Shown piece by piece: positions 19,328-34,436 of a stretch of DNA of 64,000 bases; within the stretch, counting starts at the first letter, position 1, and every line of letters begins with the position of its first letter. Origin of the DNA: Marispirochaeta aestuarii (GTDB lineage Bacteria; Spirochaetota; Spirochaetia; JC444; Marispirochaetaceae); the NCBI RefSeq assembly GCF_002087085.1, contig NZ_MWQY01000004.1:62001-126000 (forward strand), read 5' to 3'. The position numbers and the translations under genes are program-made. The notes beneath the pieces were generated by a model. The model was given only the letters and a program-made list of their open reading frames with translations. It was not told the DNA's origin and did not search any database.

Positions 19328-21565
19328 ATGAAAAAACCCGCAGCGGCAGCCGTTCTGTTTTACCTTGCCATCTTTACAGCTTTTATCCTTACAGGCTGCA
19401 GCGGCGGTGGGGCCGGGGGAGGAGAGCAACCCTATGCTCCTCAATCATCACTGGACGATATAATCCTGGACACGGATTTCTTACAACATGTCTATCTCGA
19501 CATTACCCAGAGTCAGATTGCCAATACATCCGTGGATATGGAATACAGCCTTACCGATGGATCCACCTGGGTGGACTGTACCGACAATCCCCAACCGGTG
19601 GTATTGACGGTCGGAACCGGAGTGTGGATCCGTAATGAAGGAGACGGTTCATCCGAGCGCTTTCTCGGCCAGGTGGATGCTTTATCCGGTCCCGATATTA
19701 ATGCGGGGGATGAGCTGTATGTCGGTGTCTATGACGCCGGAGCCAACACCTGGGACGATGTCTCCTCTGTGTCACCGGGAAATATCCTCAATATTCTTGC
19801 CTATATCCAAAATATCGGTACCGATGCCTGCCCTTCCGGTCACCGCTTCGACTTCTATATTTCGGATGACACGACAATAACGACTGCCGATACATTGATC
19901 CGCAGCTATGTGTATACCTCCGCTACAGCTGCCGGCGGAACAATGTCTTTCGTCCTCACCTTCCAGGTTCCCTCCGGCTTCTCCGCCGGGACCTACTACA
20001 TCGGATATATCGCCGACGCAGGGAATACTGTCAGCGAGATGAACGAGGGCAACAACACCTCCGCTCCCGAGGGGGTTACTCCGCTGATCGTCAAGGACAA
20101 TTCAGCAGTCCCGGGCGGGGCCGTTAAAATCTACAATTCCTGGGGTGAAGGGAACGGCTGGGAGAATAATGCCGACGGATACTACTGGATGCCCTACGAG
20201 GTCCTGAAAAATAACCGGATGCTGGTGAGCTACTACTACAACGATTTTACCCGGGAGTATAATCCCACCTCTGTACTGGTCTTTTCACTGACCCATCCGG
20301 AACGGGATAAGCTGCGCGTTACCGTCGGCCTGGGAGATCCAGCTGATCCGTATATGAAAAAAACATTTCAAAGTGAATGGAACAGCACAGACCTGATCAG
20401 CGGAGCGATCCCTTTTCCAGCCAACAGCATGATCCTGGATATAAGTGAGTTCGCAAGCGGCATCAACAGCTACGATCTCTTTTTCATGGTGGAAAATTCC
20501 AGCGGTACTTCCGGTTCACTTGGCAATCTGAGTCTCGAACTCTACGGCGATTATGATTCCCCCGCAATAAGAACGCTGAATTCTGTCTCCACCACATTAC
20601 CCGCAACCCTTTCTGCAAACGCAGAAACAACCGTATACCTCAGCACTGCAGGAGAACTGACCCTGACCGAACAACAGCAGATTCTCCCCATGTCCCGTTC
20701 CACGAGCCTGTCGGGCATTACTTTTAATGAACGTATGCCCTCCTCCGGAGAAATTGCCCGAAACATAGACCGCTACGGAGTGTATATTCCCGGAAAAAAC
20801 TACAACACAATAGTCAAGCAAGGTTTCGGAACCGGATATGCCCCCCCGTCTCGAAGCGTATGGGAAAGCACCAGGATCCTGGAGAGTATCGATACCGGAA
20901 TAACCAGGGGTACACTGCCCATGGCGGTTGACAACTCCGCCAGCGTTTATTTCCCCCCAACAGGCAATCAGGGATCCGAAGGTTCCTGTTCAGCCTTCTC
21001 GGTGGGCTATTACATCCAGACCTATACGGAAGCAAAGGAACACAACTGGGATCTTTCTTCAACAAGCTGGACCGGCGGCGCCACAGGTTCACCATCTTCA
21101 AACCTGGATAAAATTTTCAGCCCGGATTTTATCTATCATCAGATAAACGACGGCGGTGATAACGGGTCGAACATCATTCAGGCGGCCGGGCTGGTAACCA
21201 GAATCGGCGGCGCGACATGGAACACCATGCCCTACGATACTGCTGATTCAACCTCCTGGCCATCGGAGGCCGCCTGGCGGGAAGCCCCGAAATACCGGGG
21301 GCGGGAACCGGCCAAGTATTATTGGGACAATCTTTCAGCCGGTTATTTCGTTATAGAAGACGATTCAGGCATTCAGCTTCTGAAAAGTCTTCTCAACGCG
21401 GGCTACTGCGTCAGTACCGGTATTGCAGCAGAAACGGTGTATAACGGACTCGATATCAATGACGTCGTGAATTCGGCTGTTACGTGGACATCCACCAATC
21501 ATGCCCAGACTATTGTAGGCTATAAGGAGGGGACCTCGTGGGACCCGTCAAATCCCGACTCCTGA
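19328..21565 (+). CDS. Lipoprotein with CARDB domain and apparently permuted papain-like (C1A) peptidase
   Basis: 745 residues. Lipoprotein signal with lipobox LTGC (Cys24). A CARDB-type beta domain follows (about 125-255, ending in VSEMNEGNNTS). Next comes VKIYNSWGEGNGWENNADGYYW: NSWG (Asn270) is the motif that normally closes a C1A catalytic domain. A beta-sandwich-like stretch follows (about 290-410). Only later come the oxyanion Gln548 and catalytic Cys554 (QGSEGSCSAFS), then His725 (NHAQTIVGY). The chain stops 20 residues after the His, just where NSWG would normally follow. The Cys-His-Asn elements are thus all present but in the order Asn-Cys-His. The gene has GAGGAG before its ATG and a weak promoter (TTGATT 19251, TAGTCT 19274). 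Peptidase family confident; activity unproven. Confidence 0.85.
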   Translation: MKKPAAAAVLFYLAIFTAFILTGCSGGGAGGGEQPYAPQSSLDDIILDTDFLQHVYLDITQSQIANTSVDMEYSLTDGSTWVDCTDNPQPVVLTVGTGVWIRNEGDGSSERFLGQVDALSGPDINAGDELYVGVYDAGANTWDDVSSVSPGNILNILAYIQNIGTDACPSGHRFDFYISDDTTITTADTLIRSYVYTSATAAGGTMSFVLTFQVPSGFSAGTYYIGYIADAGNTVSEMNEGNNTSAPEGVTPLIVKDNSAVPGGAVKIYNSWGEGNGWENNADGYYWMPYEVLKNNRMLVSYYYNDFTREYNPTSVLVFSLTHPERDKLRVTVGLGDPADPYMKKTFQSEWNSTDLISGAIPFPANSMILDISEFASGINSYDLFFMVENSSGTSGSLGNLSLELYGDYDSPAIRTLNSVSTTLPATLSANAETTVYLSTAGELTLTEQQQILPMSRSTSLSGITFNERMPSSGEIARNIDRYGVYIPGKNYNTIVKQGFGTGYAPPSRSVWESTRILESIDTGITRGTLPMAVDNSASVYFPPTGNQGSEGSCSAFSVGYYIQTYTEAKEHNWDLSSTSWTGGATGSPSSNLDKIFSPDFIYHQINDGGDNGSNIIQAAGLVTRIGGATWNTMPYDTADSTSWPSEAAWREAPKYRGREPAKYYWDNLSAGYFVIEDDSGIQLLKSLLNAGYCVSTGIAAETVYNGLDINDVVNSAVTWTSTNHAQTIVGYKEGTSWDPSNPDS

Positions 21566-21936
21566 TCATACTCATGATCCCGGCAATTGCGGCTCCAGCG
21601 TTCTCTTCAGGTCCCCGGGAGAGAGCGCAGGAAAACGTGGTCAATCCAGCCCCGGAGACTGAAGCGTCAGGCGGTCTTACGGGGGGATTCAGGAAAGCGG
21701 AAAAGGACAATCCTCATGTAATCGAATCTGTCCGTTTTCTGAAAGCAGAAATGGACGCCCGGGGGATCAGGGTTCAGGAAGTCCGCAGTTCGGAAATCCA
21801 GGTTGTATCGGGATATAAAGTGCATCTTGTGGCTGAGTACCGAAAAAATGGAACCAGCGACGTTCTGGATGCCCTGATCTATCTGCCTCCCCGGGGAGAG
21901 CCTCAGTTATTATCGCTTACATACGGTGCTGAATAA
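21538..21936 (+). CDS. Small secreted protein of unknown function
   Basis: 132 residues from a GTG at 21538, with AAGGAGG 7 nt upstream, inside the 3' end of the peptidase gene (28-bp overlap in another frame). The N-terminus VGPVKSRLLIILMIPAIAAP is a signal peptide, so the product is exported. The mature part has alternating beta-like segments (VQEVRSSEIQVVSGYKVHLV) and ends in YGAE. Not recognised. Its coupling to the peptidase lipoprotein suggests a joint envelope role, perhaps as an inhibitor or partner, but nothing in the sequence proves this. Confidence 0.75.
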   Translation: MGPVKSRLLIILMIPAIAAPAFSSGPRERAQENVVNPAPETEASGGLTGGFRKAEKDNPHVIESVRFLKAEMDARGIRVQEVRSSEIQVVSGYKVHLVAEYRKNGTSDVLDALIYLPPRGEPQLLSLTYGAE

Positions 21937-29000: not shown

Positions 29001-29531
29001 ATGCAGACGCAGACAAATCCCGCAAAGCAGACTGTTTCATCGGAATCTGAACAAGAGCTTCTAAAAAATTTTCAGGAATTACTCCCGCAATTTGATCCCG
29101 AAAAAGGTGGTCTGATTCCTGCCCTGCAGTCTGCACAGAACCTCTTCGGATACATTCCCGAAGAGGCCATGCGCCTTATTTCCCGCTCCATGGATATACC
29201 CTTCAGCGAGGTAGCCGGGGTAGTCAGTTTCTATTCCTACTTTTCCACCGTACCCAGGGGGCGCCATGTTGTCCGGGTCTGCCTGGGAACCGCCTGCTAT
29301 GTTCGGGGAGGAAAGGAGGTACTGGCGGCTATGCAGAATGAACTGGGTATCGGAATCGGAGAGACCACCGAGGACAGGCAGTTCAGCCTGGAGGTTGGAC
29401 GCTGCTTCGGCGCCTGCGGCCTTGCTCCCGTTGTAATGATTGACGATCAGGTCCATCAGAGGGTACGCCCGACCTCTATCCGCAGCATTATAGACGCCTA
29501 CAGGGACGATAGCGAAGAGGAGGTACTATGA
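29001..29531 (+). CDS. hydC: Trimeric [FeFe] hydrogenase subunit, NuoE-like [2Fe-2S] protein
   Basis: 176 residues, thioredoxin-like [2Fe-2S] fold of NuoE/HydC/HndA. The four cysteine ligands appear as CLGTACYVRGG and CFGACGLAP (the usual CX4C...CX3C). It passes electrons between the flavin subunit and the hydrogenase in the bifurcating HydABC complex, in the cytoplasm. AAAGGAGT precedes the ATG. Overlaps hydB by 4 bp (ATGA). Confidence 0.95.
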   Translation: MQTQTNPAKQTVSSESEQELLKNFQELLPQFDPEKGGLIPALQSAQNLFGYIPEEAMRLISRSMDIPFSEVAGVVSFYSYFSTVPRGRHVVRVCLGTACYVRGGKEVLAAMQNELGIGIGETTEDRQFSLEVGRCFGACGLAPVVMIDDQVHQRVRPTSIRSIIDAYRDDSEEEVL

Positions 29532-32500
29532 TCCAGCGTATCAACGACAGGGAACACCTGGACAAGCTCTCACGGGAATATGCTGCGGACAAAAATGAGC
29601 AGACCATACTCCTGTGCGCCGGCGGCGGATGCATGGCCTCCGGGGCCATGGATGTAAAGGAAGCCCTTCAGGATGCCCTGAAGCGCAACAGTCTCTCCAT
29701 ACCCGTTAAGGAGACGGGCTGCATGGGGCCCTGCGCCGCGGGACCGGTTATAATGATCCATCCGGAAAAAATCGTCTACGAACGGGTGAGCCCGGAAGAT
29801 GCCGACGAGATCGTCACTTCCCATTTCATCGGGAAAAAACTCCTCAGCCGGCTGATCCACAAAAACTCCGGGTCCCGGGAAGAGGCCCCGGAGATGGATT
29901 CCATCGATTTCCTGAAGAATCAGAAAAAAATCGTCCTGAGAAACTGCGGCCGGATCGATCCCGGAAGAATCGAGGATTATTATGGCGAAGGGGGATACAC
30001 CGCCCTGGCGAAAGTTCTTACAGGCATGAAACCGGAAGATGTGGTTCAGGCGATAAAGATCTCCGGACTGAGGGGACGGGGAGGAGCCGGATTCCCCACC
30101 TGGATGAAGTGGGAGTTTACCCGTAAAGCAGAAGGGGACCTGAAATACGCATTATGCAATGCCGACGAGGGAGACCCCGGCGCGTTCATGGACCGCAGCG
30201 TGCTTGAAGGGGACCCCCACAGTCTGATAGAAGGCATGGCCATTGCCGCCTACGCCATCGGAGCCAGAGAAGGTTTCGTCTACGTACGGGCCGAATATCC
30301 CCTGGCGGTTTCCCGACTCCACAAGGCCCTGGAACAGGCCAGGGAGGCCGGGCTGCTGGGTGAAAACATTTTGAACACCGGCTTCTCCTTTGATCTCTCC
30401 ATACGGATGGGCTCGGGCGCCTTTGTCTGCGGAGAAGAGACCGCCCTCATCAGCTCCATCGAAGGACACCGGGGAGAACCGCGTCCCCGTCCTCCCTTTC
30501 CCGCCCAGAAGGGTCTCTGGCAGAAACCGACTTTGCTGAACAACGTGGAGACCTACGCCAATGTTCCCGCCATCCTGATGAACGGTCCGGAAAAGTACGC
30601 CGCCATCGGGTCGGACAAGAGCTCCGGAACCAAGGTCTTTGCCCTGGCGGGGGCCATCGAGACCAGCGGCCTGGTGGAAGTCCCCATCGGCACCTCCCTT
30701 GGAGAACTGATCTACGATATCGGCGGCGGTATCAAGAACGGGAAAACCTTCAAGGCCGCCCAGATAGGGGGTCCCTCGGGGGGCTGCATTCCCAAGGAGC
30801 ACCTCTCGGTACCCCTGGATTACGACAGCCTCGCGGAGCTGGGTGCCATCATGGGGTCCGGCGGTCTGATCGTCATGGACGAGGACACCTGCATGGTGGA
30901 TGTGGCCAGGTTCTTCCTGGAGTTCGTTCAGGAAGAGTCCTGCGGCAAATGCGTCCCCTGCCGGGTCGGCACGAAGCGCATGCTGGAGATTCTGAACCGG
31001 ATATGTGAAGGCAAGGGAGAAGAAGGCGATATCGAGCGTCTCATCGAGCTGGGCACAATGATCAAGGAGACCTCCCTCTGCGGCCTGGGCCAGACGGCTC
31101 CGAACCCCGTCCTGTCGACGATCCGTCACTTCCGTCACGAGTACGAAGACCATATCCGGCGGAAGCACTGCGAGGCGGGGGTCTGTCCGGGACTCGTACG
31201 GGCACCCTGCCAGAGCGCCTGCCCTGCGAATGTGGACATTCCCGGTTTTGTCTCGCTGGTCAGGGAAAAGCGCTACGCCGAGGCGCTCCGGCTGCACCGG
31301 GAACGAAACCCCTTTGCGGCGGTCTGCGCCAGGGTATGCTTTCATACCTGCGAGGATCACTGCCGCCGCTCGACCCTGGACGAGCCGGTTTCGATCCGCG
31401 GGATAAAGCGTTTCCTGGTAGAACAGGAGGTTACAATTCAGATCCCCGAGGTTCGGGAGAATCCCGAAAACGAAAAGCGGCGGGTAGCCATTATCGGGGC
31501 CGGCCCCGCGGGCCTCTCCTGCGGATTCTTCCTCGCACGGCTGGGCTACAAGCCGGAGATTTTCGAAGCGGAATCACGCCCCGGCGGCATGCTGGCCCAG
31601 ACGATTCCGGCCTACCGTCTGCCCCGGGAGACTCTTGCCCGGGAGGTCCGCATGATCGAGCGTATGGGGGTAAAGATCCATACCGAAAAGCGGCTGGGCA
31701 GGGACTTTAGCCTGGAGGGCCTTAAGGAGGATGGTTACGAGGCAGTATTCATGGCCCTGGGAGCCCCGGAGAACCTGCCCCTCGGTGTAGCGGGAGAAGA
31801 CGCGAAGGGTGTCGTACAGGCCGTACCATTCCTCAGGGAGTACAACATACGGGGATCCGTTCCGGTGGGGAACCGGGTCATCGTAATCGGCGGCGGCAAC
31901 GCTGCTGTTGACGCTGCCAGGACAGCCATCCGACTGGAGGCGGAGGAGGTTACCATCCTGTATCGCAGGAGCCAGGAACAGATGCCCGCCTATGCGGAGG
32001 AACTGGAAGAGGCCCTCAATGAAGGAGTCGCATTGCGTACCCTGGTGCAGCCGGTGGAGATAGTCTCCGACAAAAACGGCACTGTCACCGGTCTGCGCTG
32101 CCTGCCAATGACCCTGGGCGACTTTGACCGAAGCGGCCGCCGGGGACCGAAGGCCGTGGAAGAAGAGCCCGAGTTCATTCCCGCTGACCAGATCATCATC
32201 GCCATCGGGCAGCGCCTGGATCCCAAACCCGTCCTTGGATCCCTGGAGCTTGCAACCAGGCCTGACCACTTTATAATCGCAAATCAGATTAACGGCCAGA
32301 CCTCGGTTCCCTGGATTTTTTCCGGGGGAGACATGGTTTCCGGTCCCTCCTCGGTGGTCTCCGCCATCGCCGCCGGAGAACGGGCTGCTGCGGGAATTGA
32401 CGAATATTTAAGCGGAGAAAACCACGCCTTCTGGCGTGAAGAGTGGAACAACGATACCGCCTACGATCCGGATGAGGCCCCGGTACCCTACCCCAGGGAG

Positions 32501-32668
32501 AAGCTGCCCACCATAGACGTGGAACGGAGACGATCAAACTTCGATGAAGTGGAACTCTGCTGGACCGAGGCCTCGGCCATGCGTCAATGCGGCCGCTGTC
32601 TGCGCTGCGATTACGGTAAATCCCCGGTCCGCCGGGAGACAAAGGAAAAGGAGGCCGCCCATGTATAA
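29528..32668 (+). CDS. hydB: HydB/NuoF-like flavin subunit fused to a GltD/NfnB-like NADPH oxidoreductase domain
   Basis: 1,046 residues, much longer than a usual HydB (about 600). Order: a thioredoxin-like [2Fe-2S] domain (about 28-100, CAGGGC and GCMGPC), a NuoF core with NADH and FMN sites (GRGGAGFPTW near 182) and the [4Fe-4S] motif ESCGKCVPCRVG near 468. In place of the ferredoxin tail normally found in HydB there is a GltD/NfnB-type unit: an N-terminal Fe-S domain (CQSACPANVDIPGF, CARVCFHTCEDHC), an FAD site GAGPAGLSCG near 656, an NAD(P)H site GGGNAAVDAARTA near 788, and a C-terminal CGRCLRC near 1021. The second flavin centre suggests the complex couples H2, NAD(H), NADP(H) and perhaps ferredoxin. 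Overlaps hydC by 4 bp and hydA by 8 bp. Confidence 0.92.
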   Translation: MIQRINDREHLDKLSREYAADKNEQTILLCAGGGCMASGAMDVKEALQDALKRNSLSIPVKETGCMGPCAAGPVIMIHPEKIVYERVSPEDADEIVTSHFIGKKLLSRLIHKNSGSREEAPEMDSIDFLKNQKKIVLRNCGRIDPGRIEDYYGEGGYTALAKVLTGMKPEDVVQAIKISGLRGRGGAGFPTWMKWEFTRKAEGDLKYALCNADEGDPGAFMDRSVLEGDPHSLIEGMAIAAYAIGAREGFVYVRAEYPLAVSRLHKALEQAREAGLLGENILNTGFSFDLSIRMGSGAFVCGEETALISSIEGHRGEPRPRPPFPAQKGLWQKPTLLNNVETYANVPAILMNGPEKYAAIGSDKSSGTKVFALAGAIETSGLVEVPIGTSLGELIYDIGGGIKNGKTFKAAQIGGPSGGCIPKEHLSVPLDYDSLAELGAIMGSGGLIVMDEDTCMVDVARFFLEFVQEESCGKCVPCRVGTKRMLEILNRICEGKGEEGDIERLIELGTMIKETSLCGLGQTAPNPVLSTIRHFRHEYEDHIRRKHCEAGVCPGLVRAPCQSACPANVDIPGFVSLVREKRYAEALRLHRERNPFAAVCARVCFHTCEDHCRRSTLDEPVSIRGIKRFLVEQEVTIQIPEVRENPENEKRRVAIIGAGPAGLSCGFFLARLGYKPEIFEAESRPGGMLAQTIPAYRLPRETLAREVRMIERMGVKIHTEKRLGRDFSLEGLKEDGYEAVFMALGAPENLPLGVAGEDAKGVVQAVPFLREYNIRGSVPVGNRVIVIGGGNAAVDAARTAIRLEAEEVTILYRRSQEQMPAYAEELEEALNEGVALRTLVQPVEIVSDKNGTVTGLRCLPMTLGDFDRSGRRGPKAVEEEPEFIPADQIIIAIGQRLDPKPVLGSLELATRPDHFIIANQINGQTSVPWIFSGGDMVSGPSSVVSAIAAGERAAAGIDEYLSGENHAFWREEWNNDTAYDPDEAPVPYPREKLPTIDVERRRSNFDEVELCWTEASAMRQCGRCLRCDYGKSPVRRETKEKEAAHV

Positions 32669-34436
32669 CATTACCATCAACTCACTCCCGGTCAGCGTGG
32701 ACAGGAACATGACCATCCTCGAGGCGGCCAGGAAAACAGGCATCCGCATACCGACCCTCTGTTTTCTCGAAGGACACGCTCCCCTGGGAGCCTGCCGGGT
32801 CTGCGTCGTAGAAGTGGAAGGGGCGAAAACCCTGATGCCCGCCTGCGCCACCCCGGTACAGGACGGCATGTCAATAAAAACCAACAGCCGCCGTGTACGG
32901 GAGGCCCGCCGCATGGTTGTGGAACTGCTGTTGAGCGAGCACAACGGCGACTGCAAATACTGCGACCGGGGTGAGGACTGTGAACTGAAAGATCTGGCCA
33001 TCGAACTGGGAATCGAGGATGAGCGCTTCAGCGGAGAGCGGCTGGAACCCACCCTGGACGATTCCACCCCGGCGCTTACCAGGGAAGCATCAAAGTGCAT
33101 AAAGTGCCGGCGCTGCGTAACCGTCTGCAACGAGGTACAGGGGGTTGGAGCGCTGTTTCCCCAGTATCGGGGCTTCTCTGCTGTTATAGGACCTGCCTTC
33201 AGCCGGCCCCTGGACAGTGTAGCCTGCGTGCAGTGCGGCCAGTGCGCCGCGGTCTGCCCCGTGGGGGCCATAACCGAACGCAACCACATAGACGCGGTCT
33301 GGGCAGCCCTGGACGACCCCGGTAAACACGTGGTCGTGCAGACCGCCCCGGCAATCAGAGCCGCCCTGGGAGAGGAGTTCGGCCTGGAACCCGGCACCCT
33401 GGTGACCGGCAGGATGGTGAGCGCCCTCCGGGCTATGGGCTTTGACGCGGTCTTTGATACCAACTTTGCAGCAGACCTTACAATCATGGAAGAGGGCAGC
33501 GAGCTGCTCATGCGCCTGACCAGACTCCTCAAGAACCATGAGAAAGCCGCCCTTCCCCAGTTCTCATCCTGTTCCCCCGGCTGGATCAAATACCTGGAGT
33601 ACTACTATCCCGAGATGATCCCCAACGTTTCATCATGCAAGTCCCCCCAGCAGATGTTCGGTGCCCTGGCAAAAACCTATTACGCCGACAAAATCGGTAA
33701 GAAAGCGGAAGAGATCACCGTGGTTTCGGTAATGCCCTGTACGGCCAAGAAGTTCGAAGCCCTGCGGCCTGAAATGCGGGATTCCGGAGTCCAGGACGTG
33801 GACTACGTCCTGACCACCCGGGAGCTGGCACGGATGATAAAGGGAAGCGGCGTCGCCTTTACCGAACTTCCCGAGGGAGAGATGGACGCCCCACTGGGAC
33901 TCTCCTCCGGTGCGGCGGACATTTTTGCCAATACCGGCGGCGTTATGGAAGCCGCCCTGCGCACTGTTTATGAGCTCGTTACCGGACGTCCCCTGCCAGG
34001 AGAAAACCTTCATGTTCAGCCCCTTGCAGGTCTGGAAGGGATAAAAGAGGCCTCCCTGATTCTGGAGAACGTCAAGCCGGAGTTCGATTTTCTTGAAGAG
34101 GTAGAGGTTCGTGTAGCCGTTGCCCACGGCCTGGGGAATGCAGGAAAACTCCTGAACAGGATTCAGGCCGGAAAAGGGGACTACCACTTTGTCGAGATCA
34201 TGACCTGCCCCGGCGGCTGCATCGGCGGCGGCGGACAGCCCCGTTTTACCGATGATTCGGTCAGACAGAAGAGGATCGAGGCAATCTACAAGGAGGATGA
34301 GGGCAAACCGATACGGAAGTCCCACGAAAATCCGGCCATAACCCGGATCTACGAGGAGTATCTGGGAGAACCGTTGAGCGAACGCTCTCATCATCTGCTG
34401 CATACGAAGTACAATGCCCGGGAAGTAGTGCAGTAG
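32661..34436 (+). CDS. hydA: [FeFe] hydrogenase catalytic subunit (M3 type, trimeric class)
   Basis: 591 residues from the ATG at 32661 (AAAAGGAGG 6-8 nt upstream, 8-bp overlap with hydB); the longer in-frame extension to 32544 is not needed. Clusters in order: [2Fe-2S] domain (CFLEGHAPLGACRVC), His-ligated [4Fe-4S] (HNGDCKYC, residue 94), two [4Fe-4S] (CIKCRRCVTVC and CVQCGQCAAVCP), then the H-cluster domain with L1 SSCSPGW (about 303), L2 MPCTAKKFE (about 359) and L3 EIMTCPGGCIGGGGQP (about 512). L1 differs from the TSCCPGW of clostridial monomeric enzymes. It makes or consumes H2 as part of the HydABC complex. No maturases (HydEFG) lie in the window. Confidence 0.95.
   Translation: MYNITINSLPVSVDRNMTILEAARKTGIRIPTLCFLEGHAPLGACRVCVVEVEGAKTLMPACATPVQDGMSIKTNSRRVREARRMVVELLLSEHNGDCKYCDRGEDCELKDLAIELGIEDERFSGERLEPTLDDSTPALTREASKCIKCRRCVTVCNEVQGVGALFPQYRGFSAVIGPAFSRPLDSVACVQCGQCAAVCPVGAITERNHIDAVWAALDDPGKHVVVQTAPAIRAALGEEFGLEPGTLVTGRMVSALRAMGFDAVFDTNFAADLTIMEEGSELLMRLTRLLKNHEKAALPQFSSCSPGWIKYLEYYYPEMIPNVSSCKSPQQMFGALAKTYYADKIGKKAEEITVVSVMPCTAKKFEALRPEMRDSGVQDVDYVLTTRELARMIKGSGVAFTELPEGEMDAPLGLSSGAADIFANTGGVMEAALRTVYELVTGRPLPGENLHVQPLAGLEGIKEASLILENVKPEFDFLEEVEVRVAVAHGLGNAGKLLNRIQAGKGDYHFVEIMTCPGGCIGGGGQPRFTDDSVRQKRIEAIYKEDEGKPIRKSHENPAITRIYEEYLGEPLSERSHHLLHTKYNAREVVQ

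Follow-up and report, generated by a model that had tools for sequence, protein, structure and literature searches.

A lipoprotein gene in the window (the whole stretch of DNA analysed, 64,000 nucleotides from Marispirochaeta aestuarii) carries the active-site motifs of a C1A-type, papain-like peptidase in an unusual order, and comparison with archaeal homologues of normal order supports a circular permutation of the enzyme. The gene overlaps a second one, for a cystatin-like protein that is probably its inhibitor.

The peptidase motifs stand in a permuted and conserved order

The peptidase gene has the following layout.

19328 to 21565, + strand: coding sequence of the circularly permuted papain-like peptidase (745 aa, ATG start, stop included; from the ORF list)
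19328 to 19399, + strand: signal peptide with the lipobox FILTG followed by Cys24 (read from the sequence; Cys24 is invariant in four orthologues)
19760 to 20062, + strand: CARDB domain, residues 145-245 (Pfam PF07705, E 1.3e-9)
20117 to 20557, + strand: Asn module (GAVKIYNSWG...DGYYWMPYE) and then a beta-sandwich, residues 264-410 (two-module HMM, 205 bits)
20135 to 20137, + strand: codon of Asn270, of the catalytic type (invariant in 25 homologues)
20795 to 20914, + strand: pro-region-like segment, residues 490-529 around GTGYAPP (it also lies ahead of the Cys in archaeal relatives of normal order)
20804 to 21532, + strand: Cys-His module, residues 493-735 (two-module HMM, 378 bits; structural match to the cathepsin L heavy chain and xylellain)
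20969 to 20989, + strand: Gln548 to Cys554, the oxyanion Gln and the nucleophile (invariant in 25 homologues)
21500 to 21502, + strand: codon of His725, of the catalytic type (invariant in 25 homologues)

Along the chain, NSWG (270-273) comes first, QGSEGSC (with Gln548 and Cys554) follows, then NHAQTIVGY (with His725), and the stop codon lies 20 residues past His725. The colinear C1A order is Gln/Cys, His, Asn; here, Asn270 precedes the other three. A preliminary description of this DNA had noted the inversion, and both the ORF translation and the 25 homologues bear it out. Upstream of the gene, the search for a sigma-70 promoter gave no match.

We find the permuted order in 27 distinct homologues from the Spirochaetia and the Riflebacteria, on independent contigs. 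In an alignment of 25 homologues, covering the two bacterial phyla with identity down to about 31%, the Gln, Cys and His and all four residues of NSWG (N, S, W and G) are invariant and stand in the same order. The same order and the same invariant residues recur in four full-length orthologues. The full-length orthologue of the sister species, which has this order, is 86% identical, and those of two further spirochaete families are 44-47% identical. Neither a broken copy nor an assembly junction came to light.

The gene might instead be a relic, as the preliminary description had allowed, or the product of a frameshift or assembly artefact that retained its open frame. One relative fits such a picture: a permuted homologue (L033, in G183:C68) has its Cys module split over two frames and is itself a pseudogene or an assembly error. 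Opposed to this are the order shared by 27 proteins on independent contigs in two phyla, the lack of internal stops and the purifying selection on the gene. Measured against the sister species (G002), dN/dS of the window gene is 0.14 overall, 0.086 for the Asn module and 0.096 for the Cys module. Because the four active-site residues are invariant and selection is purifying, the relic is excluded, and we rejected this whole group of explanations as next to impossible. Judged by its sequence, the gene encodes a working protein.

The profile of the Asn module and beta-sandwich matches 20 of 395 genomes of the class. Full-length permuted forms occur in 4 of 40 Riflebacteria genomes, one of which holds four copies. 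Several of the Riflebacteria proteins (L038, L043, L044, L046) carry the permuted peptidase as the C-terminus of ORFs of about 1000-2050 aa; they include several paralogues from one genome and lack a cystatin-like neighbour. In G216:C47, two permuted peptidase genes (L025, L037) lie in tandem with a cystatin-like gene after the second, and no two-domain intermediate was found at this site.

Archaeal homologues hold the same modules in the normal order

The preliminary description had expected two separate Peptidase_C1 matches. This was not what the profile gave: PF00112 matched the window peptidase once, at 6.9 bits (gathering cut-off 20.7), with profile positions 2-176 of 220, the N-terminal part, aligned to the peptidase's C-terminal half. 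Searching the window proteins with Pfam, NCBIfam and PHROGs returned CARDB and sub-threshold matches only, and a PF00112 search of the window's genome returned zero matches. The permuted pair of matches was obtained with two HMMs built here. We split the homologue alignment into an ASN profile (Asn strand, hairpin, beta-sandwich) and a CYS profile (pro-like segment, Cys helix, His strand). Both profiles were then run against every ORF at every locus.

All bacterial homologues with the beta-sandwich showed the order ASN to CYS. In contrast, all Thermoplasmatota homologues, found in 12 of 145 genomes, showed CYS to ASN with the same beta-sandwich. With both segments at full length, we count 15 archaeal proteins of the CYS-ASN order versus 27 bacterial proteins of the ASN-CYS order. 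The segment at 20117 to 20557 corresponds to the C-terminal part of a normal-order enzyme and has its equivalents in L061-L064. The gap between the modules is roughly 8-15 residues in the Thermoplasmatota, and the linker from beta-sandwich to Cys module in the permuted form is long, about 80 residues. The archaeal junction reads NHANTVIGYDDN...GAFKIANSWG, whereas the bacterial proteins end in NHAQTIVGYKEG...stop and carry GAFKxVNSWG after CARDB. The pro-like stretch YNxIxxGxGTGxxPP stays with the Cys module in both orders.

Since archaeal homologues of normal order share the same modules, the break can be placed in the hairpin that joins the His strand to the Asn strand. The circular permutation of a C1A-type peptidase, as proposed in the preliminary description, is thus supported by sequence comparison.

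Performing a phylogenetic analysis on the re-ordered modules, we recovered 26 of the 27 permuted proteins as one clade (100/99), nested among normal-order proteins and with archaeal tree neighbours. The long-branched L034 fell just outside, and an AU test did not reject a single clade of 27 (p 0.39). A single origin of all 27 is therefore not certain. Tandem duplication followed by loss of the outer halves is a plausible route to the permutant; no intermediate of this route was found. Re-ordering six sequences in silico into the normal order (A6) gave colinear alignments with cathepsin L, and the best E of this six-sequence profile was no stronger than that of the natural-order profile of 25 sequences. 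The case is thus decided by the archaeal homologues and not by this control. Viral contigs yielded two distant normal-order peptidases and nothing else.

The Thermoplasmatota proteins L061-L073 are C1-type peptidases of large size and normal order that share the beta-sandwich. In three of the four Thermoplasmatota peptidases scanned with Pfam (L047, L061, L062), PKD, Ig-like or beta-helix repeats come after these modules. Their close kinship with the bacterial permutants suggests a transfer between domains.

The predicted structure is a single C1A-like fold

We modelled residues 262-745 with AlphaFold2 using 25 sequences and obtained one compact fold with a pLDDT of 87 and a pTM of 0.90, a value that positions both modules confidently relative to each other. 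The best match among solved structures was xylellain (3ois; Z 16.2 over 203 residues), and procathepsins came next. Cathepsins K and L matched the Cys-His module with Z of about 14-15. From residue 229 of the model onward, the alignment starts at xylellain residue 27, upstream of the Cys module of xylellain, and profile positions 234-292 align with residues 75-129 of procathepsin K.

Cathepsin L is cut in one loop after synthesis, giving a heavy and a light chain, with the Asn on the light chain. Model residues 269-475 (window residues 530-736) span the heavy chain of cathepsin L over its full length (1mhw, 1icf; Z 13.9), matching 168 of 174 residues; heavy chains are 174-175 residues long. 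The heavy chain, 1icf_A, ends at the loop of the natural cut. The end of the window peptidase chain coincides with that loop, so the termini of the permutant lie where an open chain is already tolerated.

The catalytic core has the C1A fold in the model, and the active-site Gln, Cys, His and Asn are each present in their own motifs and invariant in the 25 homologues. The PF00112 score is below the cut-off; L063, a relative of normal order, exceeds it at 24.3 bits. Of 25 permuted members, 12 match the profile with an E of 10 or less, the best being 7.6e-6. Because its motif order and profile score both depart from C1A, we class the peptidase as a permuted offshoot and not as a regular member. 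Permuted NlpC/P60 proteins (LRAT/YaeF) have the Cys helix after the His strand; here, Cys554 precedes His725. On sequence and model together, the best reading is that the protein would work like a C1A peptidase.

The permuted fold might also be dead or serve a non-proteolytic role (binding or transpeptidation) in adhesion or envelope structure. The CARDB domain and the beta-sandwich suggest binding, and the Peptidase_C1 score is far under the cut-off. Yet all four active-site residues are kept in 25 homologues from two phyla down to about 31% identity, and a dead enzyme would have no need of a neighbouring gene for a cystatin-type inhibitor. To our knowledge, dead papain homologues usually fail to keep all active-site residues. 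We consider a dead or non-proteolytic protein quite unlikely.

In a further alternative, the Asn segment would complete the site of a second molecule by domain swap, or the Asn module would be dispensable to a Cys-His dyad. In favour of this, the linker is long (about 80 residues), and dyad enzymes do occur in the superfamily (PMC10318531). The pTM of 0.90 was nevertheless reached with a single chain, and the Asn is invariant together with its NSWG context, which makes a swap or a dyad very unlikely in our view.

An overlapping gene encodes a cystatin-like protein

At its 3' end, the peptidase gene overlaps a gene that the preliminary description had not covered.

21538 to 21936, + strand: coding sequence of an exported cystatin-superfamily homologue (132 aa, GTG start, 28-base overlap with the peptidase gene)
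21524 to 21530, + strand: Shine-Dalgarno sequence AAGGAGG within the peptidase gene, 7 bases ahead of the cystatin-like start
21799 to 21813, + strand: QVVSG, an instance of the QxVxG inhibitory-loop motif of cystatins (nine homologues all keep Gln88 and Gly92)

The window gene starts with GTG, and the sister species has ATG at this position. The N-terminal Gly49 is also invariant in the nine homologues, and the Pro-Trp second hairpin of classical cystatins is replaced by LPP or xDP in these nine. Pfam PF00031 did not match the window protein; it matched four of the nine members weakly (best E 0.016). Searching the PDB with a nine-member profile, we found sialostatin L2 (E 1.1e-5) and tarocystatin (E 1.9e-4). 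The structural model has a block pLDDT of 93-97 over residues 51-130. Its leading matches in both Foldseek and VIA are cystatins: the top Foldseek match was tarocystatin from a complex with papain (probability 1.00), and the best Z, 12.7 (VIA), was with cystatin C bound to cathepsin K. Several homologues carry a lipobox, whereas the window copy, judged by its sequence, would simply be secreted.

We also considered that the KEG codons containing the Shine-Dalgarno sequence are conserved for translation signalling. This was rejected as not general: among the 17 permuted genes listed, AAGGAGG occurs at that site in three (the window, L002 and one G216 copy).

The cystatin-like gene is probably paired with the peptidase

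In nine spirochaete genomes, the cystatin-like gene lies directly 3' of the permuted peptidase gene. Because neighbouring genes were used to build the cystatin profile (A4), these nine top adjacencies are partly circular; this does not apply to G014 and G039, two further spirochaete genomes in which a normal-order C1 peptidase has a cystatin-like gene directly on its 5' side (L008/L089 and L005/L091). The gene is kept beside the permuted peptidase in the window's genome (G000), the sister species (G002) and G216, three genomes in which PF00112 found no other C1 peptidase. Across 395 genomes, a permuted peptidase occurs in 20, a strong cystatin match in 14 and both in ten (p = 7e-12, treating species as independent with relatedness uncorrected). 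From the three genomes without another C1 peptidase, the adjacency in G014 and G039 and the co-occurrence across genomes, the cystatin-like protein is probably the cognate inhibitor of the permuted peptidase. The pairing is not obligatory, as no recognisable cystatin gene was found beside many permuted peptidases, including those of the Riflebacteria and of spirochaete family f8.

Alternatively, the cystatin-like protein may target foreign C1 peptidases, from protists or other microbes, and not its neighbour. Host or eukaryotic targets have been proposed for bacterial cystatins (PMC2784779), and mid-scoring homologues in G207, G140 and G210 have no adjoining C1 peptidase on the contigs read. 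Such a role is difficult to reconcile with overlapping genes and an internal Shine-Dalgarno sequence, with adjacency in nine genomes and in two more beside a normal-order C1 peptidase, or with the three adjacency genomes in which no other C1 peptidase was found. We regard a foreign target as unlikely.

Proposed mechanism

We consider it likely, from sequence and model, that the window encodes an active, envelope-anchored permuted peptidase that is co-translated with a dedicated cystatin-like inhibitor. The lipoprotein anchor would hold the papain-type enzyme at the envelope. The upstream part would supply the Asn strand, hairpin and beta-sandwich, and the downstream part the pro-like segment, the Gln/Cys helix and the His strand. 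Across the permuted ends, the Asn strand would still dock beside the His strand. We infer an ordinary C1-type triad of Cys554, His725 and Asn270, with Gln548 as the oxyanion residue, and pro-like residues 490-530 may block the cleft until cleavage. The cystatin-like protein would be translated together with the peptidase from the overlapping gene. Going by homology and gene pairing, its N-terminal Gly and QVVSG loop would enter the active-site cleft and bind as a wedge. It may thereby shield the cell's own envelope proteins, in the periplasm or on the outer surface, until the peptidase meets its substrate.

More tentatively, cleavage at the pro-like segment between the modules might activate the enzyme into two chains, which, with the co-translated cystatin as a check, would make a bacterial cathepsin-cystatin pair; we hold this to be possible and somewhat doubtful. 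After such cleavage, the lipid-anchored Asn/beta-sandwich chain would hold a separate Cys-His chain, a mirror of two-chain cathepsin L.

Relation to known systems

The C1A peptidases xylellain and cathepsins K and L (MEROPS C1A) share with the window enzyme the Cys-His fold, the Gln/Cys/His/Asn set, NSWG and a pro-like segment before the Cys. Unlike in these enzymes, its Asn strand and following segment come first in the chain and then the beta-sandwich. Whereas the break in cathepsin L is a cut after synthesis, the break in the same loop here is encoded by the gene. The Thermoplasmatota peptidases (L047, L061-L073) have its pro-like segment, its two catalytic modules (Cys-His and Asn) and its beta-sandwich, but arranged in the usual way, with Cys first, then His and Asn, and the beta-sandwich after them.

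The papain fold has also been circularly permuted in nature in NlpC/P60 (LRAT, YaeF/YiiX) and PPPDE proteins (PMC3142127, PMC10318531); those of the LRAT/YaeF type are described in PMC3142127. A survey of papain-fold permutation covers the Cys helix, beta1' and, in OTU-like groups, beta3-beta5 (PMC10318531). In NlpC/P60-type permutants, the Cys helix, alone or together with strand beta1', has moved behind the His, whereas the window peptidase keeps the Cys-His order and has the Asn strand moved to the front. The string 'permut' is absent from a 2023 papain-family study (PMC10380794), and the literature searched, mostly outside subscription journals, contained no permuted C1A-like enzyme or break between the His and Asn strands. 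The papain-fold permutants described there belong to the NlpC/P60, PPPDE and OTU-like groups. Enzymes of both orders survive with one accessory domain in common, which allows a tree to give the event a direction, and a break in the loop that is cut in cathepsin L suggests why the permutation could be tolerated.

A papain-like peptidase gene adjoining a small inhibitor gene is also found in staphopain-staphostatin, SpeB-Spi and Bacteroides C10-Bti/Bfi (PMC3462683). Several of these pairs are co-transcribed, and some Bacteroides inhibitors are predicted lipoproteins (PMC3462683). Their peptidases differ from ours in belonging to families C47 and C10, which are not described as permuted (PMC3462683). 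Staphostatins resemble lipocalins and not cystatins, going by the title of Rzychon 2003 as cited in PMC3462683. By analogy, the window pair resembles these systems in its logic, with both protein partners different. Bacterial cystatins and stefins (PMC2784779) have the cystatin superfamily and QxVxG in common with the window neighbour. Their proposed targets are host peptidases, whereas the window type is exported and genetically tied to a resident C1-type peptidase. The linked gene thus offers a testable case of whether bacterial cystatins regulate resident rather than host peptidases.

Elsewhere in the window, positions 29001-34436 hold a hydrogenase operon of the electron-bifurcating type, in which a 1046-aa fusion of a NuoF-like protein with a GltD/Nfn-like pyridine nucleotide-disulphide oxidoreductase is followed by an [FeFe] hydrogenase.
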